Shown here: one piece after another, positions 1-15,817 of the stretch
Layout of the letters: each line of letters opens with the position of its first letter
Numbering within the stretch: position 1 is the first letter of the stretch
Notes under the pieces: generated by a model
Databases searched by the model: none
What the model was told of the DNA's origin: nothing
The model's input: the letters and a program-made list of their open reading frames with translations, nothing else
DNA from: Dasypus novemcinctus
Taxonomy: Eukaryota; Chordata; Mammalia; Cingulata; Dasypodidae
Assembly (NCBI RefSeq): GCF_030445035.2
Contig: NC_080704.1
Coordinates: 27,074,499-27,138,498 of the forward strand
DNA: 64,000 bases
Reading direction: 5' to 3'
Position numbers and translations under genes: made by a program

Positions 1-106
1 AATTACTGTTTTACTAAAATATGCCTGGCATAATCATTTGGGAAGGATAGTATTTTAGTATTTTAGGCCTGAGAACTTGTCAATTATTACATAAATATAT
101 ATGGAG
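1..106. other. Flank left of the older ERV
   Basis: AT-rich unique sequence. No gene or repeat is recognised. The last four bases (GGAG) may be the left target duplication of the older ERV, because GGGG follows its displaced 3' LTR (13159-13162 on the reverse strand). Confidence 0.4.
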
Positions 107-507
107 GAATAAAATGGTATAGAGAAAGCCCTGGGCCCCTCAGAGCCAAACACACACACACAAACAAACAAAACATGTTCTCTGGAGTTTCCTTGTTTCT
201 TTGTTTGTTTCCTCTATCTTTGTCAATTTGAAATCCCCACCAAAGCAGCTGACCCAGATAGCCAATCAGGCCCCTAGTTCATTACCAATACAAAATAAAG
301 CCCACCTGCCCTAAACCTCCCTCTATGAGATGCACAAACCTTCGTCCAATCAGTAGGAGACAAAACTAATTAACTTTCTATGTCTATAAAAATCCGTTGC
401 CATCCCTAGAACCTTGAAGCTACTTGGCTTCCTTTGCGGCAGTAAAACTTTGGCGCCCTGAATAAAATGCTGTAGTCTGCAAACTCAACTCCAATCTGTC
501 TTTCACA
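107..507 (+). repeat. 5' LTR of the older class I ERV
   Basis: This stretch matches a reversed copy at 13163-14010 over most of its length, at roughly four-fifths identity by eye. Shared landmarks are the AGAGAAAGCCCTGGGC block near the start, GCAGCTGACCCAGATAGCCA near 246-265, a TATAAAA box near 386, and the AATAAAATGCTGTAGTCTGC poly(A)-signal block near 461-480. The end is set by the CACA before a short spacer and the primer site. A CA-rich simple tract lies inside. The divergence suggests an insertion tens of millions of years old. The exact start is uncertain by a few bases. Confidence 0.8.
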
Positions 508-511
508 AGTG

Positions 512-529
512 TGGAGGTCCCACCAAGAA
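512..529 (+). other. Primer binding site, tRNA-Gln type (older ERV)
   Basis: TGGAGGTCCCACCAAGAA complements the 3' end of mammalian tRNA-Gln (TGGAGGTCCCACCGAGAT) apart from two bases. It begins four bases after the LTR end, where a retroviral primer site belongs. A splice-donor-like CAG/GTAAGG follows near 571. Confidence 0.75.
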
Positions 530-1035
530 ACAGAAGGTGTCATCTGGGGCTGCAGGCTCCTGCAACCCAACAGGTAAGGCATCCACGAAAAACCTGAGGC
601 AGGTTAGTATAGGGAACGGGGAAGGCGGCTGGTCAGAGTAAAGCCATGGCACCTGGGACCCAGATGGTCAGAACAGAGCCATGAAACCCCACCTGGAAAC
701 CCCCCAAGGGCAAGCAGCTGCTTGAGAACAAAGTTGTAACCGTTAGGGCTAAAAGCCCGCCAAAGACCCTGGTCAATAGGTCCGCTTTGAAAGTCCTGGG
801 CTCAAAAGAAGTCCCGGATAACACCATACAGGCCTCCCTATTGGTTCCCTGAAAGATGACAGGTGAAGGCAGAAAGGCAACCTATCAGGACAGCAAATAG
901 GTAGGGTCCCTCCCTGACTTGAGGAAAGGGGAGGAGGAAAGGTCTTTAAAAAGGTCTACCCCGAGGCACCACACCCGTGTCACACCCTGCAGTACGCAGC
1001 CATGTTTGGGTATGTACTATCTCTTTTCCTCATTT

Positions 1036-1454
1036 TTTTTTCTTTTTTAAAGATTCATTTATTTATTTATTTCTCTCCCCTCCCCCCCCCACCCCGGTTG
1101 TCTGTTCTCTGTGTCTATTTGCTGCCTCTTTGTCCACTTCTGTTGTCGTCAGCGGCATGGGAATCTGTGTTTCTTTTTGTTGCCTCATCTTGTTGTGTCA
1201 GCTCTCCGTGTGGGCGGCGCCATTCCTGGGCAGGCTGCACTTTCTTTCGCGCTGGGTGGCTCTCCTTATGGGTGCACTCCTTGTGCATGGGGCTCCCCTA
1301 CGTGAGGGACACCCCTGCGCGGCAGGGCACTCCTTGCGCATATCAGCGCTGCGCATAGGCCAGCTCCACACGGGTCAAGGAGACCAGGGGTTTGAACTGC
1401 GGACCTCCCATGTGGTAGACGGACGCCCTAACCACTAGGCCAAGTCTGCCGCGC
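1036..1454 (-). mobile_element. Long DAS-type SINE
   Basis: Long form: a tRNA-like head with a B-box-like GGTTCAAACCCC, a GC-rich body and an A-rich tail. The tail is at the left, seen as poly-T. It is flanked by CCTCATTT at 1028-1035 and 1455-1462. It sits in the leader of the older ERV, so it is younger than that element. Confidence 0.85.
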
Positions 1455-4189
1455 CCTCATTTCTTAATAAACTCTTTATTCCCTTGCCTACCCTATGGCA
1501 TGTCCTTAAATTCTTTTATGCGACTTAGCCAAGAACCTAGAATCCAGAACCTAGTCAGAGCCCAGAGCATTCCACTAACAAGACCCTTTTGTGTCTGCTG
1601 TCCCATCGCAGGGACCCCCAGGTAACCCCTTCCTATATCTGAACTCTGCAATTGGCATCAAGTTCAATTGCCTTTTATTTGGGATTTTGGTTTAGGTACC
1701 CTTGGTTTGTGTTAGGTTTCTGTTCTTTCTATCATCAGACCTTCCATTTGCTCTCATTTCATTTTTGCCTCCAGCTCTCTAATTTTCTGTCTCTCTGAGA
1801 CGTAGGGTTTGGAATCCATGAGGCTTGCCTGGTAAGCAGACTGGGTCACATGGCGACTGGGTTGCCAGTTCTCTCCTATGTAATGAGCCTCTATTTCTAC
1901 ACATTATGCGACACATTGTTCCTACACCTGTCTGGAACTTCCACTCACCAGAGGATCCTGCAACGGTTGGAGGGATACCCAAGTGACTGAGTTGAAAATA
2001 AATCTCTTTTTTTTAAAGTTCCATAGGAAAAGAAAAGGCTGAAAACAGAACAAAGGCGAAAGGGCTCCAAAGCAAACCTATACCTCCCTCATTTTCCTGT
2101 GCCCAGCCCTTCCCCCATAGCTGCCCTACCGGTTCCTCATGACCCCCAAGGGAAAATGATCTAACCCAGACTCCTTTAAAGATTAAGCCTTCTCTGGAAC
2201 CTGGCTGCCTGCTAGAGCTTAATTTAAACCTTGGACTTGAACTAAAAGCTATAATTGAAGATACCCCAAATAAGACCAGCAAATATTCATAGAACTTAGA
2301 ATTCTTTGGGGTGCATGTGATCAGGGCTGCCTGACCTCTATCAGCTTTGCTCACATGTTGGTCAAAACCTCAGAGGCTAAATCCTGGATGGCAAAAGCTG
2401 GTTGTTCTGGCACAGAAAGGGACTTTAAAAGATACCTCTTTCCACAATCTAAGAGTCAAATAGGCCTGAGAAATAGGGCAAAGTTTATATAAGATTACAC
2501 ATCAGGGCAAAGGAAATCTTAAAAGTCTCCTCCACAAATTACAATCAGAAAGCTTGTAGTCCTCATATTAAATAAAGAAGCTCAATTTGTCCCATTTGCC
2601 AAGAACAAAAACTCTGAAAAAAATATAAGGAAAGCCAGCTCTTTTTATATAAACGAGTAAATTTTATATTCTGTGTTTCTGTGTTTTTATGTCTGACTCA
2701 TGGTTGAAAATTTTTTAATTGAAGCTATAGGCTCTCTATATGTGTCTGGTTTTTTAAATGTATATTTTCCTACCTCCAGATGGTAATACCAAATTAACAA
2801 ATATTAATAAAAAATTCTTAAAAGAGCTCCATTCAAATTGCTTAAGCATAAATAAGCACTTATATATATAAATTATTGATCCAAAAGTCCCAGAAATTAA
2901 GGAAACCTAACTTCGAATACTTCCAGTGTAAATAAGAGTATCCGTAGAACTAAAACCACATGTTTAAAAAAATTCATGTTCACAGAATTCAGATAAATCT
3001 TTTATAAATGGGACTAGTTTAATATTGTTACTTAAATAAAAACAGCTATACCTTCTGAGTTATCAACGTTAAGTACAATACAAGCACAATTTTATTCTAC
3101 TTGTGTATATTCTCCCTAAATTTCTACAGGTTTACTGATAAGATAAGCTAGCATTATATCTACTAGATCTTTAAGATGATGAAAAAATGTAAATTTGTGT
3201 TTAACCAAATTGAGTTTTTACTTTGACAAACTATTTTAAGAATAATTGTGCTTTGTAGGATGTTTGAAGACCCTTTCAAAGGCCTTTTGGGTAACTTAAG
3301 GTATGCAGGTATGTAAGGTATGCAAGATGTGCTTTGTTTAGGAAAAGGAGTGTAGTTTTGCCCTAAAGTAAAATGACTGGTTGTCACAGAATGAGAAGCA
3401 GGAATGTCTAGGACAAAACCTGAATGGATATTGTAAGTTGTAAAAGGTTTGTGGAAAGGGAATTTTATTTGTCATGGGCAGGTTGGCTAAGATTTGATAG
3501 GCTTTTGAGACTTTTAAGAGTTTTCTTATCAGTATCCTCAAGCAAAACTAGAACTTGGGTTTCTTTCTGTTAAAATGAGTTTTCTTGGATTATTGTTCTG
3601 TTTTTACGAAGAGTTTGTAAAAGGTTTTTCTTAACCATCTGAGTAATTGACCTAGAAGGCAAAGATTATCTTATCAGAACATTCTTATTGATATTTATCA
3701 GTATTTGAAAATATTTTCTTTTCAAACCTGATAACTTTTTGACATTTGATATGTTATGATTTACATGTCAAATTAAAAGGGATTTTCTAACTTTCTGTTG
3801 ATTAAGTTTAAATGGGGTAAATGTTATTCATATAAATATTTAGAGATTAAATAAAATTCCTAGAGATTTTATAATGTTCTCTCTGTTCATGTTATGTCCT
3901 GATACTGATCTGTATTATATTAGACAGCAGTGTAGTATTGTTGGTCATAATTTTAGTTATTCTTAAAAAAAAATGCTACATACCACAAAAACAACCAAAT
4001 TTCCTTGTTAGTTACAGTGTGTTACTCTGATGTTTCTCTGAAAGTGCTTGCAGTCAGATACAGATCAGTGATTTAGCTTCAGGGGGAAAAAAAGGTACTT
4101 TAAACAAGAAGCAAGGCAAGTAGATAAATTATGTTCTACCTGCAATTAACATGACCCTGAAAAAGGTGGGACAGGGTCAGATATCTTGA

Positions 4190-4860
4190 CCAAAAGAGCC
4201 ATTTGGACATCTTCAAATTAACTTTATATGGCTATCTTTTCTACATTTATAACTTTATAACTTTGTACAGTACCATATTCTACAGGATAAGAATACATCC
4301 TTGTTATTGTGTATCTATTTTCTGGATGGATAGAGGCTTTTCCTAATCACAAGGCTACTGCCCTCACAGTAGCTAAAAGAACTATTGGACTTTGTTTTCC
4401 CCATCTGGGAAATTCTTCAAGCAATACAGTTTCAATTAAGTGGAACTGTAATCAAGGAACTTCCCAAGGTCTCATGCATCAAGTAAAAGCATCCTGTCAT
4501 CCTCAACTGACAGGAAAGATAGAATGAACAAATGGTATCTTAAAACTTAAATTAGCTAAATTATCTGACTCCTTCTCTCTTGACCTTAGCCTAGGGTTCT
4601 TCCCTTAACACGGTGTAGTTGTAAGGAACTAATCACATATATCCAGTTCCACCATTTACAGACCTAGGCTGCGTTTTCTGAGACTTCTCTAGAGCAGACT
4701 CTATATGATCTTCAACCAGAAGAACTTGATATACTAGAAGAGACATCAACGAAAGACTGCTTTAGCACCTAGATGGAAAGGCCTTTATCAAGTCTTATTG
4801 ACCACCACTATGGCAGTAAAACTGCAAGGAACTGACCCCTGGTTCCACCTGTCACAACTA
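4190..4860 (+). pseudogene. pol: Integrase part of pol, older ERV fossil
   Basis: Conceptual translation shows gammaretrovirus-like integrase signatures. FSGWIEAFPNHKATA lies in the catalytic core, and a HPQLTGKIE-type segment follows near 4498. A LAPRWKGLYQVLLTT-like stretch near 4767-4810, followed by a WFHLSQLK-like segment, fits the C-terminal domain of class I retroviral integrases. The piece is a broken fossil. No reverse transcriptase or RNase H is recognised upstream; the AT-rich stretch lies there instead. Confidence 0.75.
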
Positions 4861-4914
4861 AACATGCACCAAGTCCTCGAGAGGTTACTCTCATTTTGAA
4901 TCTCCGGCTAAAAC

Positions 4915-5754
4915 TGACATGAGGATTCCAGAAGCAGATGGCAACTGATGTAGACAGCTTCTGCCCAAAATGTTGGAATAAGTAGACGATGCCCAAGAAC
5001 ACGGTTAAGACACGCCTGAATTTCCTCATCTAATTCTGTCTTTTCCTTTCCACCATCTATCTAAATGTTCTCTTAGTCATCGTGCACCCCTAACAATCTC
5101 CATCCCCAATGATATGCTACCTTCACCGTGATTTTATCTGTTTACCCTTTTTCTGCCCTATGTACTTACGACCTTGATCACAATTTCTTTGTCCTTCTAG
5201 CACCCCAAACTTTTAATAACATGAGAACTTATTCCACTCAAGGCAAAAATTTCTGGTGGGCTGAAGGGTTAGGCAAAGGAAATTGTTGGTTAAATGGGAC
5301 TAAGATATCAGATAATAATGATGATGACAGTTATGATTCTCCTTTTGGAGTTTACACCCAATTAGTTCTACATGCCAGTATCTCACTTCCTGAATAGGTA
5401 CCCTTATTAAGCTCTTCAAGGGCATTATTTTATGTGTAGACACAAGACATAACAAAGTACTACCTGTAAATTGAATTAGTCTCCCTGTTATACAGCTTCT
5501 GCTCTTCCTCAAATGGCTATTTATAAGCTTCCAAAAAGGAAAATTAGAAGCATGAAGGCTGTTATGACCTCTTTCCGTATTATAAAAACTCATGAAGAGG
5601 TTATTGCCAGACTAGAGACAACTTTAAATGGACCATGGAAAAACCCATAACCCAGGCTAAAGACATGGGGTGTTCTGTTCTTGGTATTGTTCCTCATGTA
5701 TTTGGGGCAGGTACCTCCTGTGTGGAAGATACCCTATAGGATTACAGATGGTAT
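4915..5754 (+). pseudogene. env: Envelope (SU-side) remnant, older ERV fossil
   Basis: It follows the integrase C-terminus directly, as env does in simple retroviruses. A frame at 5128-5397 has features of a surface-unit envelope, with W-rich and N-glycosylation-like motifs (NFWWAEG, NGTK). It is broken and is cut at 5754 by the insertion of a younger LTR. Assignment rests on position plus weak sequence character. Confidence 0.5.
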
Positions 5755-6218
5755 TGATGTGGGCTATGGGTGGAAGGCTCTTTGTCTCTTCAGAGATAAC
5801 GAAGTTGTTTGACTTGTGGGTGTGAAACGGTAAGAGGCTGCAGTCCTGCTCTTAGGGACCAGCAGGCTCCAGTCCCAGGAAATGTTTAACAAAGCAAGGG
5901 CTATAAACTTTAAGTATTTAGGGGAAATGCAAAAACCAAGGCTTATCTAAAATGTCTGGAGTCCTTGCTAAAAGCTTACCTAAGATGTGGAAGAGATATA
6001 TGCTAATTGAAGCCTATTGAGAACTGAAACAAAGGGACGATTTGGCCTTTCCTCTCTGTATAAAAGACATTTGAAAATCTTGTTCCGGGCTCGGGATTCA
6101 AACAGAAAGCTCCCGAGTCCGGCCGGCCGTCAATAAACCATTTTTCCTTCTCAAAATCATTCCTGAGTCCTGGCCTCTCTATTCTCAAATAATTGAACTT
6201 CTCTTAAATTCCACAACA
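5755..6218 (+). repeat. Younger-family LTR, first copy
   Basis: It starts TGATGTGGGC and ends CCACAACA. It has a TATAAAA box near 6060, AATAAA near 6132 and a U5 tail. It is about 99% identical by eye to the reversed copy at 14612-15109, but it lacks the 34-bp duplication seen in the other two copies. The left flank is GTAT (5751-5754). The matching GTAT lies not after 12691 but beside the reversed copy (14608-14611, reverse strand). Its 5' portion is therefore best read as an originally solo LTR inserted in the older env region. Confidence 0.85.
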
Positions 6219-6222
6219 TTAA

Positions 6223-6240
6223 TGGCGACCACGAAGGGAC
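6223..6240 (+). other. Primer binding site, tRNA-Arg(CCG) type
   Basis: TGGCGACCACGAAGGGAC is an exact complement of the last 18 bases (with CCA) of mammalian tRNA-Arg(CCG), four bases after the LTR end. A strong splice-donor match AAG/GTAAGA lies near 6460. Confidence 0.85.
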
Positions 6241-9200
6241 AAAAATGAAGGCCAGAGATGGTAGCATTTTGCTGCCCCTTCCAAATCCCCGAGGAAGCCG
6301 GGAGGACTCGGGTGAACCCCAAATCTGGGCGCCCCTGGATTAAATTTAATCCAGAAAAGATGTGGGCTCCACCAGAATCTTCCCGACAAAATCAAGGGGC
6401 AATGGAAGGTCTGAAGAGAAAGATTCTGGGAACGAAAAAGAGCTCCGAACAGGGAAGAAGGTAAGACTCCCCGGGTGAGCACAGTCTGGAAGGCCCTAGC
6501 TTTAATTGCTAGGAAGGGGAGGCTGATCACCTCCCGAGAGAACCCTAGTAGCCCCAGAAGGCTGGGGGGAAGCCGTTCTCTCTAGGCTTGGGAAAAGGAG
6601 GAAAACCGGGGAAAAGCCCTGGTGTTTTGGGTTTGTCTAACTGCATGTTAGAATCTGGTACTGGTCTTATATCCACTAAAGGAGTGGAGTCTCGATTTTA
6701 ATAGGAAGGGTATTTATAGGTTCGAGTCCTAATATCCTGGAAATTGGTCTAGATTAAGGAAAACAAAACTTGGTTACAGGAAAATGGATCGGCTTTTCTG
6801 GTGGAGCTTGGTCTGGGTGTAAAGTTTAAACAGTGGAAAAGTCTAGCTGAAATCTTTTGTTATGGTGCTAATTTGTGAATGAATTTGCTTTATACCAAAT
6901 GTTAAGTGTTCTGAGGTTTGTGATGGCTGTGGGGGCAGCCGTGGTGAAAATAAATATATAAACTTGTGAGTCAGATTAGTGACCTTTGTGCTTCTGTCTG
7001 TGTCAGCTCAATGTTAGTGTTGGAGTTGTGTCCTTACATGAAGTAGAATTACAGCTGAGCTGGAGCCCTCCCTTGCCATTGGCAAGGGGGTGAAATGATT
7101 CTGGGGCAAAAGCTGAGGAGTCTAGATGTTTGTGCATGTTCTGGTGTCTTGTCTCTGGTCTGGCCCTTTGCCGGGGCTTGGAGGCCATCTGTGTCCGAGC
7201 CAAGCACCCAAGTCTGTTGGGAATGTCCCAGTCAGGGCGGCTGGGTTCCTGGGAGAGTTGCCAAATTTGAGTAGGTTCTGTCTGCCCATTTTGGCTGAAA
7301 GCTGGAAAGGGGGGAGCGGCTTGCCCCTTTCCAGTGAGTCCACCCTTCTATTCATAAGCCGCATTCCTGTTTGTTGTGCACCCGACTGCCTGGAAGGGGG
7401 GGAAGTGAAGGAGGTGAAAAGCAGAATCAGAATAAATGCAGTAAAGTTCCCTCCTTAGGGTGTCAAAGCCAAAATACGTTTGCATTGTGCTCAGGTTCTT
7501 AGAAGGTATTGTAGTAACCTTAAGTAAGAGAATGTGTTCTGTGAAGGTAAACTTTGTATTAAGGGTATAAATAATTATAAAAGTTTTACAAAGCATTGTT
7601 TAAGGTATTTAAGTGGCTAATTGCAGAAAGTCATTATTTAACAAAACTGAATTGATAATAATAATAAAAGGCAATTTTATAACAAACTTATTCGGCAGCC
7701 AATCTCCCCTGCCAACTTGCTTCCAAAAAAACTGTTTCTGGTATTACATGCTACTAAGTATTTAAAGTGAAGAAAAGTTCATTATTTTAACAAACTTGTT
7801 TAGTATTAATGGCAATTATATGTTGCAAGAAGTTTGCCTGGTAACTTAGTATGTGGGATATATGGAGTGTGTTTTTATTGTTAAGGCAACAGAAGATGAT
7901 TTTGTCCTAAGATAAAATGATTGATTATTGGAAAGAGTAGAGTGTGGGACAGAACCTGAATGAATACTGAAAGTGTAGAAGGTTTGTGGAAGGGAAATTT
8001 TTATGATTAAATTGAGTAAGATCAATATACAAAGAAAATATTTTATCAATAGCTTCTTGTGCTTTAACCTCATCATATCCTCAATGTTTGAAGAAGAGTC
8101 TTACCTCTTTTAAAAGAACATTTTATGTTCTAGAAATCAAATCCTGAAAAGTAGCCTTTTATTTCAAACTAACTGCAAGAGATTTATTCTTTTACTTTAA
8201 AGGAAAATTAAAGTAATGGTTAAGTTCATTTAATATAAGTTGAATGAAAGGTATTTAAAGGTGTTATAAAATTAATAGGTTTTAAAAAAATTAATAAAAA
8301 CTGTAACTAAGAGTTAAAATCATTTATAAATGCATTTATATTATAAAACAGTGGAAAGACAATAACTGAGATTATAGCTGGGTGAATTTAGCCTGAAACT
8401 ATTATTTAAGTGTAAATTCTACACTAACCTTTCCTTTGTTTATGGTTACTTCAAGCCTAACCTCACCCTTTGCCTTTGCCTATGGTTATTTCATAATTGA
8501 GAAGAGCTGGGACATCACTGTCTCCTCTCCTGGTATTAGTAACCCTTTCTCTCATGAATTCAAGTGTAAACTAAATAAATTGCTGCCTGATAGAATAAGG
8601 TTAAATGGCCACTGGAGTTTTATTATCTCCAAAATCAAAAAGGGGGGTGGAGGGGGAGAAGTCTCCTGCCTTGACGGTCAGTGTTCCTAAGAGTGGCAAT
8701 TCATGAGAGAAAGCAGTCTGTCTCCCTGAGGCTTCAAATAGCCTCAGTAAATATATATAAAGTTAATCTTGTTGCTTATCCAAAATTCTGCTAATTTCAA
8801 AGTAAAATATAAAGTTCTAAAACAAAATGGTGCTAAGGTATTGAGAACATTTTGGTTATTACAATCCATTAAGTAAGAAAGAAAATTCTTGTGGTAAACT
8901 GCATGGTCATAGTGCAAATTAAGAAGAGTTTCAAAAGTCTTTGAAAAGTTTAAAGTAACTAAAGTCATGTTGTTGTGCCAAACTATTCATGTCTGCCTAT
9001 TTGCTCAAATTGTTGAGGTTAAATATGCAGTTATATTTATAAATATTCTTAAAGCCCAAATTGAACTAAGCAGGATGAAAAAGTCATAGAAATCTAATTA
9101 TGGAAACAATTGGGAAAGGGCCTCCTCTTTGCAAGAGCTTTTAAGGCAAGACTAGGTGTGGCAGATTAAATCTATCTACTAGGCTAGGGAATTAAGAATC

Positions 9201-9303
9201 AGTTTGCCTGGTAATTTCCCAGTTTAAACCTTTGTCAGCCATAAATTGGAAAAAACAAAAAAAAAACAAAACAAAGATTAGGTTAATTTTCACAGAAGAA
9301 AAA

Positions 9304-9767
9304 TGTTGATGTAACCCGGCGGCCTGCTGCCTCAGTCTCCCACTCCCGGGTTGGACAGCAGTGGAGGAGACCAGTTTAGGCCAGTCCTATGGGCAGTGGA
9401 AGGATGCCCAAGAAGGAGCTAACTAAGTCGGTGCCATTTCAGCACTAAATTCTATTCCTTATTTGAAAAAGGGGGGAGCAGGTAAAAACTAAAATGGTTG
9501 GAATGTGATAGAGGAAGCAGTTAAATCAAACTTTTGCGTGGGAAAGTTAAATCTCAGATAAGCTGTAACTTCTGAAGTATCCAATCTATGGAAAACAGAG
9601 GAAGAGCTTGCATGCTAGGCTTAGGGGTATAAATTGTGTCATTTTTCTTTGTTCGGGGCACCAGCCATATCTGGCTCTGCGCCCCTTCTTGCAAGACTGA
9701 GAATAAATTATTTTCTTCTCCACAATCTGGTGAGCCTTATTTTCTTCCAGAAGATTTCTTTCCAACA
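9304..9767 (+). repeat. LTR-like block of a third ERV family
   Basis: It has a TATAAA box near 9630, a GC-rich hairpin-like segment (GGGGCACCAGCC ... GCGCCCC) near 9655-9690, AATAAA at about 9702, and a CTGGTGAGCC-type U5 ending in CCAACA at 9767. These are class I LTR features in correct order. The left boundary is a guess. It could be a solo LTR nested in the younger provirus or part of its ancestral body. Confidence 0.5.
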
Positions 9768-12181
9768 AAATAAGGTAATTAGTGGCTCTATTAACAAATT
9801 TCAGTAAGTAAAGGAAAGTCCATAAAAACTATAGAGAGATCTTTCCTGGGTTATGATTTTAAAAAAATTAAGTAATTGTGTAATGTGTTTTAAAACCTGG
9901 TAGTCAGTATGCTTTTAATTTAATAATTTTGATAACTTAAAGAAAAGAAGTTTTTAGCTTCCTGTAAGAGAAAAAGAGAACATTCCTTGCATAAACTATT
10001 ATGGTTTCAATTTTATTTAACTTGAGTGTAATCTCCCATAGTTAATTTATAAACTAAATTAACATATGTACAAAATCTTTACAGTAATGAAAATTGTAAG
10101 TTCACATTGGTGAAATTAGGCTAAAGGGAAAAGATTGTAGATATGCTCTCTTAAATAGAGAGTAAATTTCTTTCATTAGTAATTGTAATTTAGTAAGTTT
10201 ATTTAAACATGAAGTGTCTAGTCAATGCAGTTATAGTCAATTATAAAGAGTTTGTAAAACATCTTCCAAACTGAAAATGTTTAAATAATTCTAGTTGTAA
10301 AAGTCATTGTTAACTAAAGAAACTTAGATTAGTATTAGTAGCAGAAATAACTTCATGATAATAAACCTGTCTGAAGGCCACTGCAAAATACACATTTAAG
10401 TAAATAATAATAAAAAGTTGTCTTAATTCTATTAGAAATATTCTGTTTTCATTCTAACAATGAAAAGTATTTTTCCTCTATTACTAAAGTAAAATACCTA
10501 CTGTTATCTTCATAGTAAAATTGTGTAAGTAAATAGTCATTTGATATATGTATTGCGTTAAGTTGTTTAAAATATATATAAAACAAAAAATAAACTTTAA
10601 CATTGTCAAACTCTTGTGCATTCGAACCAAGCCTTGTATACATTACAGGTGGCCTCTCCATGTAAGTTATTAGCTAAGCTAGTCACTGACCCCTCAATTA
10701 AAAATATGTGCTATATCAGTCTCTGGTTCTGCTCCTAAAGTCGATAGAAACTATATTGCAGTTTCAAGCTCCTGCAGCCAATAATGACTCGGTACAGCCA
10801 AGTGTACAATAGATATCGCCTCCAGACTGGCACTGTTCCATGGTGCCAGAGAGCGCTATGCACCGGGCTAGTAAAATACTAAAAAATCTCTCTAAGATGA
10901 AAAATGCTGCAACTTGCTCACTGCATTAAAAAACATGCTAAGTAGAGCCATGATACCAGGAGACTGTAAGTAAAACTTAAGCACAATTGACATTATAGCC
11001 TGCTCTCATAGAGAGATAACATGTAAAGTATTACAAACCTGAAACTCAAAACTAATAATAGCAACTCTGAATCCTTATGCATTAAGTAATACATTAGTTA
11101 ATATTAAGTGCTGTACTTTTATCCTGTACTAAATATATGCCTAATAATTGTAATGTTATCTTTTCTATTTTAGATCAAGTGCAGAAGTATATTAAGCATG
11201 TTAAATTCCTGGTAAAATCATTTTCTAAACAGTTAATAACATGTCTATAGAATAAGGTAGCAGTCTCAGCCAGTCTCAGTTAGCAAAAGTGAAGCTTGCT
11301 TGCTGATAGTGAGTCACCTATTGAACAAGTCAAAATTGCTAGAAATTGTACAATGAAAACCAAAGTGTAAAAATCTTTATTCTGTAGTTCTGATCACTCC
11401 CACAGGTAAAAACTAAAAATATTTCCAAATTAGTGTTCTAATCCTGAGTGAAGCCAGTTGCCCAGAGAGTGCCAGTTCACCAGGAGCATCTGACAAAGCA
11501 AATGAGTGTCGATCATTAAACAGCTTAGAATGTGTCTTCAGACAAAGCTAAGTGTCTGTTGCAATTTCTCTCTAAAGATAGATAACTTAAAAAAGAGCGT
11601 ATATGCTGTTCCCACCAGCTTTTGGAGAATGCCATCTTTATAGGCACCTAACCTTGTCTACCTCTGTAATCCAATGTGTCCTCTTTTAAAAACGAGTATT
11701 CCAAATTTTTAATTAAGTTTGTTTCTTTCAGAGTGAACATCTTATTAACCATATGAAAACTTCATCCAACTTCGTACAGAATGCCAGATCCATCTTCCTC
11801 CAGTTAGAATAAATTAAGAGTTTTACACCTTATTAGGCAATGACTACAGCCCATGGCCAGCAAGAAGCAGTTACAGAAAAGAGATCGTCTCCCTTCAGCA
11901 CCCCTTTTAAATTAAAGGTGTAAACTCTTTAAGAGTAAAATAAAAGTAATAGATGGATCTAGAACCTGACTAGAAATCCACGTGAGTGCCAGTGGCAACA
12001 GAATAACTGCAAGAGGCCCCTGCCCAAGATTCTGCTGTCCAGAATGAAAAGCTCTAAACTTCTAAAAACAGTCCTGATGCTGTACTAAAGACTGATAAAT
12101 AATCAATCAAAACAACAAACAGCCATCCACCTCATAGCTCCAACAATAATTATGCCAAAGCTTAGCAAGTTAATCTTTGGC

Positions 12182-12194
12182 AGAAAGAAGAGAA
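12182..12194 (+). other. Polypurine tract of the younger ERV
   Basis: AGAAAGAAGAGAA directly precedes the TG that opens the LTR at 12195. This is the position of the plus-strand primer. Confidence 0.7.
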
Positions 12195-12691
12195 TGATGT
12201 GAGCTATGGGTAGAAAGCTCTTTGTCTCTTCAGAAATAACTAAGCTGTTTAACTTATGTCTCTTCAGAAATAACTAAGTTGTTTAACTTGTGAGTGTGAA
12301 ACGGTAAGAGGCTGCAGTCCTGCTCTTAAGGACCAGCAGGCTCCAGTCCCAAGAAATGTTTAACAAAGCAAAGGCTATAAACTTTAAGTATTTAAGAAAA
12401 ATGCAAAAACCAAGGCTTATCTAAAATGTCTAGAGTCCTTGCTAAAAGCTTACCTAAGATGTGAAAAAGATATATGCTAATTAAAGCCTATTGAGAACTG
12501 AAACAAAAGGACCATTTAGCCTTTCCTCTCTGTATAAAAGACGTTTAAAAATCTTGTTCCGGGCTCAAGATTCAAACAGAAAGCTCCCGAGTCCGGCCAG
12601 CCGTCAATAAACCATTTTCCTTCTCAAAATCATTCCTGAGTCCTAGCCTCTCTATACTCAAATAATTAAACTTCTCTTAAATTCCACAACA
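12195..12691 (+). repeat. Younger-family LTR, second copy, G-to-A enriched
   Basis: Same family as 5755-6218. It carries the 34-bp duplication that it shares only with the copy at 14612-15109. Against that copy I count about 24 substitutions. About 22 are G in the sister and A here, nearly all before G or A. The right flank is GCAT (12692-12695), which matches the flank of the third copy rather than that of the first. Confidence 0.85.
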
Positions 12692-12731
12692 GCATAGCAA
12701 ATAACATAGCTATTTTTTTAAAAATCAGAGA

Positions 12732-13143
12732 TGGAGTCGGACTTGGCCCAGTGGTTAGGGCGTCCGTCTGCCACATGGGAGGTCTGTGGTTAAAACCCCG
12801 GGCCTCCTTGACTCGTGTGGAGCTGGTCCACGCACAGTGCTGACGAGCGCAAGGAGTGCCATGCCACGCAGGGGTGTCCCCCGCGTAGGGGAGCCCCACG
12901 CACAAGGAGTGTGCCCCGTAAGGAGAGCCGCCCAGCGCGAAAGAAAGTGCAGCCTGCCCAGGAATGGCACCGCCCACAGGGAGAGCTGACACAACAAGAT
13001 GACACAGCAAAAATAAACACAGATTCCCGTGCCGCTGACAACAGAAGCAGATAAAGACGACGACGCAGCAAAGAGACACAGAGAACAGACAACCGGGGCA
13101 GGGGTGGGGAGGAAGGGGAGAGAAATAAATAAATCTCAAAAAA
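12732..13143 (+). mobile_element. Long DAS-type SINE
   Basis: Head at left, A-rich tail at right, with target duplication AAAATCAGAGA at 12721-12731 and 13144-13154. It lies in the short stretch between the younger LTR and the reversed older LTR. Confidence 0.88.
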
Positions 13144-13449
13144 AAAATCAGAGAAAACCCCCTATAAAAGACAAATTGAAGTCGTTTGTAGACTACAGCA
13201 TTTTATTCGGGACACCCAAGTTTTGCTGCAGTAAAAGAAGCCCAGATGGAAGTAGCTTCAGGGTTCTAGGAATGGCAAAGGATTTTTATAAACATAGGAA
13301 ATTAGCTTGGCTTTTACAGATTGGACCAGGGTTTGTCAATCTTATAGAGGCAGGTAGGCTTTATTTTGTATTGGGTCAAAGGTAGTGAACCAGGGGCTTG
13401 ATTGGCTATCTGGGTCAGCTGCCTTGGTGAGGAGTTCACATTTCAAAAG

Positions 13450-13535
13450 ATAAAGAAGAGTGGTTAAGTGCTGGCTTCCCACATATGAGGTCCTGGATTC
13501 AATCCCGGGTCCCAGTACCTCTAAAAATAAATAAA
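13450..13535 (+). mobile_element. Short DAS-type SINE
   Basis: A tRNA-like head of about 85 bp (TGGTTAAGTGCTGGCTTCCC, then ATTCAATCCC) with an A-rich end. It sits inside the reversed older LTR, directly left of a long SINE. Confidence 0.7.
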
Positions 13536-13922
13536 GGGAAGCGGACTTGGCCCAATGGATAGGGCGCCCGCCTACCACATGGGAGGCCCGTGGTTCAAAC
13601 CCTAGGCCTCCTTGACCCGTGTGGAGCTGGCCCATGCCCAGAGCTGGTGCACACACGCAAGGAATGTGCCCCGTAAGGAGAGCCATCCAGCGCAAAAGAA
13701 AGGGCAGCCTGCCCAAGAATGGCACCGCACACATGGAGAGCTGACACAACAACAAGATGACACAACAAAAAGAAACACAGATTCCTGGTGCCGCTGATAA
13801 GGATAGACGTGGTCACAGGAGAACACACAGTGAATGGACAGAGAGAGCAGACAACTGGGGGGGGGGGCGGTGGGGAAGGGGAGAGAAATTTAAAAAAATA
13901 AAATCTTAAAAAAAAAATAAAG
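13536..13922 (+). mobile_element. Long DAS-type SINE
   Basis: Full head-to-tail copy inserted in or beside the A-rich tail of the short SINE to its left. It has a G-run near 13856-13868. Clean target duplications cannot be set because both flanks are A-rich. Confidence 0.8.
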
Positions 13923-14010
13923 AAATAAAAAGATTAAGAAGCAACTCTAGAGGGCTTGGGTGTTTTTTGGCTCTGAAGAGGCCCAGGGCTTTCTCTATGT
14001 AATTTTATCA

Positions 14011-14024
14011 CTTCCCCTTCTTCT
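14011..14024 (-). other. Polypurine tract of the older ERV
   Basis: On the reverse strand AGAAGAAGGGGAAG runs straight into the TGATAAAATT start of the older 3' LTR. Confidence 0.65.
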
Positions 14025-14345
14025 GGTCATTCTCTCAGTTATGAGTGTTTGACTAAAGATGTTGTTAGTATTTCACCACTAAAAGTCTCCTGTGTTCCAT
14101 TACTGATTTCATAGATTTTCTCAAGTTCGAGATTTTCATTGTCCTATTCCCACTAGTTTTGTATCATCAGTTGTATCATTTGTCAAGTTAGTGACTGCAA
14201 ACTGTCATTTAAGAGTAGAGAGATATGCCAATGACTGAGGGATTGTATGAATATGATTAAGAGGATAACAAGTGCCCCTCTTAGGACATCTCTTAACCAA
14301 GGTCCCCACGACCCTAGAAGCCAACCAAAAAGAGACTCAGATCAG

Positions 14346-14549
14346 TCAGATTTCGGAAAGTGTGTAAGCTGATTTGCCTGCTTCTCTAGCCTGGGCTTCT
14401 GCTGCTCCTACCTCTTGGTAAACATCCTCTTGACTGTCATTTACAAATACATAGCACTGGGTCCCCCTGAGTACATACACACTTCCTTGGGAAGCCAGAA
14501 TGTAATCTAATCCTAATTGATTTCGTAGACTCATTTTATAAAGTTCCAA
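14346..14549 (-). pseudogene. env: Envelope TM remnant, older ERV fossil
   Basis: A 67-codon stretch contains NQLGLDYILASQGSV, which fits the conserved ectodomain (immunosuppressive-type) segment of class I retroviral TM proteins, with a nearby cysteine. It lies just upstream, in its own direction, of the polypurine tract and 3' LTR of the older element, so it is the far end of that element's env. It is a short broken fossil. Confidence 0.65.
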
Positions 14550-14611
14550 TACTTTGTGAGCTGATGGTGGGAGATAGATTTCTCTAACTTTAAAGCTACC
14601 TTTTCTAATAC

Positions 14612-15109
14612 TGTTGTGGAATTTAAGAGAAGTTCAATTATTTGAGAATAGAGAGGCCAGGACTCAGGAATGATTTTGAGAAGGAAAAATGGTTTATTGA
14701 CGGCCGGCCGGACTCGGGAGCTTTCTGTTTGAATCCCGAGCCCGGAACAAGATTTTCAAACGTCTTTTATACAGAGAGGAAAGGCCAAATCGTCCCTTTG
14801 TTTCAGTTCTCAATAGGCTTCAATTAGCATATATCTCTTCCACATCTTAGGTAAGCTTTTAGCAAGGACTCCAGACATTTTAGATAAGCCTTGGTTTTTG
14901 CATTTCCCCTAAATACTTAAAGTTTATAGCCCTTGCTTTGTTAAACATTTCCTGGGACTGGAGCCTGCTGGTCCCTAAGAGCAGGACTGCAGCCTCTTAC
15001 CGTTTCACACTCACAAGTTAAACAACTTAGTTATTTCTGAAGAGACACAAGTCAAACAGCTTAGTTATTTCTGAAGAGACAAAGAGCTTTCCACCCATAG
15101 CCCACATCA
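14612..15109 (-). repeat. Younger-family LTR, third copy, reversed
   Basis: The reverse complement runs TGATGTGGGC to CCACAACA. It carries the 34-bp tandem duplication near its 5' end, like the copy at 12195. Outside that it is about 99% identical to the copy at 5755. In LTR orientation the flanks are GCAT (15110-15113) and GTAT (14608-14611). They do not match each other, but each matches a flank of another LTR. Confidence 0.85.
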
Positions 15110-15155
15110 ATGCTTATTATGTCCCTAAAACTTATGAAATCAAAAATTGTTATAC

Positions 15156-15650: not shown

Positions 15651-15817
15651 ATACTTACCTGGCAGAGGAAACACAGTGATCGCAAAGGTGGTTTTCCCAG
15701 GGTGAGGCTCAGCCCCTGCACTGGGGATCTGCTGACCCCTATGATTTCCCCACATGGGGGAAACGTGTGACTGCATCATTTGTGTTGGTGGGGAGTTGTA
15801 TTCACACTCTCCCCCTG
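15651..15817 (+). pseudogene. U1 snRNA pseudogene
   Basis: It begins ATACTTACCTGGCAG, the conserved 5' end of U1 that pairs with splice donors, and runs full length (167 against about 164 nt) to CTCCCCCTG. Recognisable blocks are GGTGGTTTTCCCAGGG (stem-loop II side), GCTGACCCCT, GATTTCCCCA and GACTGCAT. I judge roughly 80-85% identity to mammalian U1 from memory. The Sm-site region is changed (CATTTGTGTTGG against AATTTGTGGTAG). There is no clear proximal element upstream, and an A-rich stretch follows, so it is most likely a dead retrocopy. A GTTTAAAAGGA near 15846 only loosely resembles a 3' box. Confidence 0.85.

Follow-up and report, generated by a model that had tools for sequence, protein, structure and literature searches.

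A window of 64,000 nt from Dasypus novemcinctus was analyzed, in which an older endogenous retrovirus (ERV) is accompanied by three long terminal repeats (LTRs) of a younger family: LTR1 (+), LTR2 (+), and LTR3 (−) (Table 1). The window lies inside the 189.6-Mb contig C47 of the 3.61-Gb genome assembly (546 contigs). The stretch of approximately 6.2–14.6 kb was very probably inverted by recombination between LTR1 and LTR3, which originally would have been a solo LTR with GTAT on both sides and the 5' LTR of a provirus that had GCAT on both sides. An inversion of 8.4 kb between these two LTRs had been proposed in a sequence-only reading of the window, and it stands as the best model given the private states shared by LTR2 and LTR3, the chimeric LTR3, and the order of 11 older-ERV paralogues. 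LTR1 and LTR3 were 99% complementary across 439 nt at a separation of 8387 nt, and opposite-facing copies of one element thus lie at both ends of the 8.4-kb piece, as in retrotransposon recombination-mediated inversions. Other details of the sequence-only reading were reproduced, namely the LTR positions (5755, +; 12195, +; 14612, −), the flanks read in LTR sense (GTAT before LTR1, GCAT after LTR2, GCAT before and GTAT after LTR3), and a 34-bp tandem unit present in LTR2 and LTR3 and missing from LTR1.

Target sites and the reversed middle segment

Further copies of the young family were searched for in the genome with LTR1 (40 scored copies of 2333 first-look candidates) and LTR3 (40 of 2910). 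The control set comprised 53 other loci (78 LTR rows), namely 25 two-LTR proviruses (14 non-duplicated and 11 duplicated), of which the ends were used, and 28 single hits (11 and 17, respectively). The sampled copies were those nearest to the window LTRs. Two-LTR pairs were built from hits of one query each, which biases subfamily concordance within pairs, and this concordance was not counted. The best copies were split into a 464-bp class (463–465 bp) without the 34-bp duplication and a 498/497-bp class with it; the duplication is a subfamily mark. The two LTRs were identical in 15 of the 25 pairs and differed at one column in seven, at two in two, and at seven in one. Because 15 pairs were identical and nine more differed at one or two columns, the sampled copies appear to be very young, as the sequence-only reading had supposed for the family.

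The family has TG...CA ends and 4-bp target-site duplications, as expected of class I ERVs. The 4-base flanks were exact in 23 of the 25 two-LTR proviruses, the other two showing a one-base shift and a one-base mismatch, and all 14 solo LTRs among the single hits had matching flanks (the remaining 14 hits were provirus halves). At the window locus, neither of the two elements has matching flanks in the present order, and the turning of 6219–14611 gives exact target-site pairs for both: GTAT/GTAT for a solo LTR and GCAT/GCAT for a provirus. Both statements had been made in the sequence-only reading. Target-site copies that are mismatched now and matched after turning are the pattern left by a recombination-inversion, and the family controls show that matching is the rule. 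Only 4 of the 300 pairings of the 25 sampled target sites were identical, so both cross-matches would arise by chance with a frequency of the order of 1 in 5000.

The former order was also read from the older ERV. Its 5' LTR (about 109–503, +) matched pieces of 13167–14008 on the minus strand at 72–77%, with one 53-base piece at 85% under different scoring. An integrase C-terminal domain of the murine leukemia virus (MLV) type was found at 4738–4896 (Pfam PF18697, E 1.2e-9). No env Pfam family was found in the scan of the older-ERV 5' part, and its presumed env remnant ends at the GTAT before LTR1. A paralogue search with the 655 bp adjoining LTR1 on the left gave 145 candidates and 39 scored non-self matches, of which the best 11 were examined; the only identical (100%) place in the assembly was the query's own. 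In 11/11 of these paralogues, the sequence that comes after the left piece, on its own strand, is the reversed middle segment; the present orientation was found in 0/11. The equivalents of 5754 and 14607 abut with 0 or 1 base between them in eight paralogues. In two others, the extrapolated ends overlap (19 and 42 bases), which likely reflects small deletions, and one has a 658-base insert.

The segment beside 14607 is thus reversed in the window relative to the paralogues. Because all 11 keep the uninverted order and eight abut within a base, 5754 and 14607 were very likely neighbors before the insertion of LTR1, and, judged by these paralogues, the inversion is real in the assembly. The uninverted order was seen for the left junction, through non-orthologous paralogues that were the best 11 of the 39 scored; the right junction lies outside their reach. 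Concerning the sequence-only claim that turning puts the transmembrane (TM) remnant, polypurine tract (PPT), and 3' LTR of the older ERV back in line, the order was restored as claimed (11/11 paralogues and the LTR match). The TM remnant showed weak similarity (14349–14606, −; best E 0.13, all ten listed chains being retroviral or filoviral envelope or fusion subunits) and matched no Pfam family, and the PPT was read by eye.

Pairing of the LTRs

A smaller inversion of 1.9 kb (12692–14611) through LTR2 and LTR3 restores the target-site pairs and the older-ERV order equally well, and its repeats are closer together. LTR1, the interior, and LTR2 would then form a GTAT/GTAT provirus and LTR3 a GCAT/GCAT solo LTR. 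The flanks and the older-ERV order cannot separate the two models because both turn 12692–14611. Consequently, the four clues that the sequence-only reading had taken as independent do not all bear on the choice, and only the pairing of the LTRs does.

An LTR state was called private when it was absent from all 78 rows of the 53 other loci. No such state was seen in LTR1. There are 24 in LTR2, all G>A relative to the copies having the column, and three in LTR3 (columns 22, 92, and 100), also all G>A and all common to LTR2. Among the 1378 pairs of the 53 other loci, three share one private state and none share more. LTR2 and the left part of LTR3 are therefore likely to come from one provirus. 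In the LTR3 search (40 scored of 2910), the scores dropped from 899 bits for LTR3 itself directly to 876 bits for the next class.

The markers of LTR3 are mixed. At the five marker columns 320, 350, 367, 422, and 464, LTR3 has the commonest non-duplicated haplotype, which occurs in 12 of 25 non-duplicated copies (paired LTRs counted half each) and in 0 of 28 duplicated copies; the haplotype of LTR2 was found in 2 of the 28. With G/A differences excluded, columns 1–110 of LTR3 differ on average by 0.04 from duplicated and by 1.40 from non-duplicated copies, and columns 311–499 by 0.60 from non-duplicated and by 2.71 from duplicated copies. Since its nearest copies are duplicated on the left and non-duplicated on the right, LTR3 is likely a chimera, duplication-type on the left and LTR1-type on the right, with the switch between 15011 and 14791. 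LTR1 keeps to the non-duplicated type as far as 6183 at least, and its last 35 bp carry no markers. The ends of the inversion, placed at 6219 and 14611 in the sequence-only reading, are moved by these markers into the LTRs, in LTR3 to the interval just given and in LTR1 to a position after 6183.

These results were used to choose between the two inversions. The 1.9-kb inversion would give a single provirus LTRs of two lengths, 464 and 497 bp, and leaves both the three private states common to LTR2 and LTR3 and the mixed LTR3 unexplained. It also makes LTR2 a recombinant, yet LTR2 is edited from column 8 to 476 and otherwise equals L089, the 5' LTR of another provirus, from which it differs by 24 G>A and nothing else. 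The smaller inversion was rejected on LTR pairing and is very unlikely. The sequence-only argument that the duplication favors 8.4 kb over 1.9 kb was borne out by the subfamily mark, the shared private states, and the chimeric LTR3.

The 3' end of the provirus was compared with other copies after the exclusion of sites where the window reads A and the copy G. Its last 700 bp show 6–16 differences to the 11 duplicated copies and 16–20 to 11 of the 14 non-duplicated copies. The subfamilies are not separated in the first 700 bp, which hence carry no information on the LTR1 junction.

Several observations weigh against an inversion between LTR1 and LTR3. No provirus-type marker was found in LTR1, and columns 320, 422, and 464 are solo-type in both LTR1 and LTR3; because a simple reciprocal crossover would make LTR1 provirus-type right of the switch, a conversion tract must be added. 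At column 350, where LTR1 reads A and LTR3 reads G, either an extra mutation (probably of a CpG) or a patchy tract is needed. With G>A sites excluded, column 320 is the only difference between LTR3 and the duplicated copy L074, which leaves that column alone to mark the chimera, so the chimera is firm only if the pairing with LTR2 is accepted (columns 320, 422, and 464). The right part of LTR2 is itself of a minority type, with a mean of 2.86 differences to duplicated copies vs 2.56 to the others. In the last 700 bp of the provirus, the three remaining non-duplicated copies are as close as the duplicated ones or closer: C42, at 5 differences, is the closest copy overall, and C1b and C40 have 11 and 13. 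The flanks alone are weaker evidence than the sequence-only reading held, because GTAT and GCAT are one base apart and 52 of the 300 sampled-site pairings are within one mismatch. Finally, all evidence comes from one assembly, in which the left flank has a single 100% match, so a mis-assembly between the inverted LTRs keeps a small probability.

The one-base difference between the flanks, with the frequency of near matches, would also suit two independent insertions without any inversion, the flanks GTAT/GCAT and GCAT/GTAT having each mutated by one transition. The middle segment is nevertheless reversed relative to the 11 examined paralogues, and mutated flanks explain neither the shared private states nor the mixed LTR3. 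This explanation was rejected by the paralogue order, which it could survive only if all 11 paralogues had been rearranged instead, and is extremely unlikely. An assembly artefact, in which the DNA between the inverted LTRs actually has the uninverted order and was flipped by the assembler, is quite improbable. The complementarity of LTR1 and LTR3 is enough to mislead short reads, but the window contains no N and its contig is long, and solo-type sequence in both LTRs at columns 320 to 464 is unlike a plain mis-join, even if a collapse of reads could yield it.

Inverted, near-identical LTRs may also have flipped the piece repeatedly, so that both orders coexist in the population. This variant is compatible with the LTR1–LTR3 inversion and is rather unlikely. 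Right of column 100, LTR1 and LTR3 are identical except for one column, as repeated conversion would give, but a single exchange with a single tract covers every marker except column 350, and in so young a family near-identity is also seen between unconverted copies. A crossover in the last 150 bp, which had been considered from the three LTRs alone, was replaced by the conversion tract once the 53 other loci were compared.

G>A editing of the provirus

In LTR2, G>A changes occur at 22 of 61 G sites followed by a purine (GR) vs 0 of 47 followed by a pyrimidine (GY; p 8e-7). Two more edits, which lie in the duplicated unit and precede an A and a T, respectively, are outside this count. Along the provirus interior, the GR edit rate was 0 in the first 700 bp (11 references), 0 at about 700–1450 (two references, 489 columns), and 0 at 1888–2482 (four references), where one G>A before T was found. 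It was 0.065 at 3383–3939 (four references), 0.34 in the last 1500–700 bp (a single reference, which makes this figure include family variation), and 0.22 in the last 700 bp (11 references), where four private A>G were also found. In 11 control proviruses, the GR rate over the last 700 bp was 0 to 0.018. The observed/expected ratio of GG is the lowest of the window in the 3' part of the provirus.

An excess of plus-strand G>A in GG/GA context and a rate that rises from 5' to 3' are the features of APOBEC3-edited proviruses. The 3' part of the provirus was likely edited during reverse transcription by APOBEC3 acting on minus-strand DNA, the enzyme being suggested by the context and the gradient. 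The polypurine tract at 12181–12194 itself bears G>A relative to other family proviruses.

Left of column 101, three of the seven LTR2 edits are shared with LTR3 and four are found in LTR2 only. Two of these four lie in the duplicated unit and cannot have been erased by conversion from LTR1, because LTR1 lacks that unit. The comparison of edits between LTR2 and LTR3 is invalid right of column 100, where LTR3 may be solo-type.

Editing gradients from 5' to 3' have been described in some primate ERVs (PMC2564838). In the mouse, 3' LTR-only edits are described for four Mtv proviruses and the MLV copy Mpmv5, with single sites in three more MLV copies, and 3' LTR-specific edits are stated not to have been reported previously for other retroviruses (PMC12548423). 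As in those Mtv proviruses, edits common to both LTRs are accompanied here by extra edits confined to the 3' LTR. In contrast to them, the host is an armadillo, the LTRs are of 464–498 bp, the LTRs of the provirus are now parted by an inversion, and right of column 100 edits of the 5' LTR may have been lost through conversion. The provirus might be the first case outside the mouse in which APOBEC3 editing is heavier in the 3' than in the 5' LTR, in a very young family and with the two LTRs then parted by an inversion so recent that both orders may segregate; the edits would serve as a barcode of the LTR pair. We consider this view somewhat less likely than not.

Origin of the locus and its significance

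The following course would account for the locus. An older ERV with an MLV-type integrase would have been resident, and an element of the 464-bp subfamily, now a single LTR, would have entered it at GTAT, within the presumed env remnant. A provirus of the 498/497-bp subfamily, G>A-edited (likely by APOBEC3), would then have been inserted at GCAT in the opposite orientation, beyond the older-ERV 3' LTR. After a break in the provirus 5' LTR, repair from the solo LTR with a crossover would have inverted the intervening DNA, and conversion would have made both LTRs LTR1-type for no less than about 145 bp (columns 320 to 464 as a minimum). The break, the crossover, the conversion, and the order of events are what we infer from the present arrangement.

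The mammalian neutral rate is about 2e-9 per site per year, at which one change per LTR corresponds to approximately a million years. Because LTR2 and L089 show no change other than edits and LTR1 and LTR3 differ at one column right of column 100, the provirus and the inversion may roughly be estimated to be about a million years old or younger. A polymorphism of the inversion in the species is plausible.

Table 1. Features of the locus, in window coordinates
Feature	Position	Strand	Description
Older-ERV 5' part	100..5754	+	5' LTR about 109–503; MLV-type integrase C-terminal domain 4738–4896; presumed env remnant to the GTAT site
GTAT	5751..5754	+	Left target-site copy of the element that is now LTR1; partner is GTAT 14608–14611 on the minus strand
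LTR1	5755..6218	+	464 bp, non-duplicated subfamily; LTR1-type markers to 6183; zero differences to the solo LTR L063
Provirus interior	6219..12194	+	5976 bp, no recognized genes; primer-binding site (PBS)-like 6223–6240; edited polypurine tract 12181–12194; G>A editing climbs toward the 3' end
LTR2	12195..12691	+	497 bp, provirus 3' LTR, duplicated subfamily; 24 private G>A
GCAT	12692..12695	+	Target-site copy of the provirus
Reversed segment	12696..14607	−	Host and older-ERV DNA with inserted repeats like short interspersed elements (SINEs)
Older-ERV 3' LTR	about 13167–14010	−	Matches the older-ERV 5' LTR
PPT-like tract of older ERV	14011–14024	−	Read by eye
Likely older-ERV TM remnant	14349–14606	−	Weak envelope/fusion-subunit similarity
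GTAT	14608..14611	−	Other target-site copy of the LTR1 element
LTR3	14612..15109	−	498 bp, likely chimeric: provirus-type over 15109–15011 or more; LTR1-type over 14791–14612 or more
GCAT	15110..15113	−	Other target-site copy of the provirus

The SINE-like repeats of the reversed segment resemble DAS elements, in keeping with an armadillo host, and the PBS-like site is one that we take to be of the tRNA-Arg type. Of the 17 plus-strand open reading frames (ORFs) of at least 45 aa in the provirus interior, 11 were scanned; no Pfam family was found above the cut-off in these 11, where one chance-level hit was seen, and thus none of the retroviral gag, pol, or env domains of a class I ERV. As no scanned ORF reached a Pfam cut-off, the young provirus is likely a non-autonomous element. 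Two pieces of its interior (7782–8001 and 10008–10102) are 65–66% alike to pieces of the older ERV (3218–3466 and 3087–3195), and, because of this likeness, the two families are probably related. At 9301–9775, the interior resembles by eye an LTR of another family (TG...CA ends, AATAAA), with no second copy within the window. A full-length match to U1 small nuclear RNA (15651–15815, +, 102 bits) lies immediately right of LTR3. A scan of viral contigs for an LTR word gave 0 matches.

Among the sampled proviruses, L053/L054 (G000 C8:116836874-116843896) has LTRs that differ at seven columns, vs 0–2 in the other 24 pairs. The duplication is present in its 5' LTR, yet the right-hand marker states are typical of non-duplicated copies, and its flanks are ATGT/ATGG; it is likely another LTR conversion. 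Two of the 14 non-duplicated proviruses (C42:13557404-13564367 and C1:103271086-103278048, both in G000) have the tract variant of 8 of the 11 duplicated ones and likely arose by recombination between the two subfamilies.

With one genome at hand, it is usually difficult to demonstrate an inversion between inverted LTRs. Hughes and Coffin (2001, 2005) reportedly read ectopic recombination of primate ERVs from mismatched LTR flanks and LTR phylogeny. Compared with that work, hosts and families differ, and the evidence here consists of private edited sites and mapped markers. The type of event is known as retrotransposon recombination-mediated inversion, and the locus is a new, very young, and well-marked case of it. 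Such inversions through Alu and L1 were described in human and chimpanzee, with target-site mismatch as one means of finding the ancestral state (PMC2603318). As in that description, recombination joins inverted copies of one element and leaves target-site copies that no longer match. Both copies become chimeric there; here LTR3 is likely chimeric, and LTR1 shows no switch up to 6183. The agents there were Alu and L1 and a second genome helped to establish the order, whereas LTRs, paralogues of the broken ERV, and G>A editing take these roles here. HERV-K124, also a young ERV locus, has three LTRs as well, and two of these face the other way from the first, but LTR inversion and template switching within one element are proposed for it (PMC3625200), and two insertions with host DNA between them are proposed here. 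Ectopic gene conversion between human LTRs has maximum tracts of 14 to 450 bp, and its link to rearrangement is offered there as speculation (PMC4921805); unlike those conversions, the present tract would accompany a crossover with inversion. No account of this locus or of an armadillo LTR-mediated inversion was found in literature titles and the openings of abstracts.

In the window, a single assembly gives the ancestral order, the partners, and the exchange interval by means of the ERV paralogues, the two LTR subfamilies, and the shared edits. If confirmed by reads, the locus would provide a mapped crossover and conversion tract between LTRs of a very young family, as well as a ready polymerase chain reaction test for polymorphism. 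The divergence between the LTRs of a provirus can stem from editing and not from age: one LTR here carries 24 G>A and differs in nothing else from its nearest copy.

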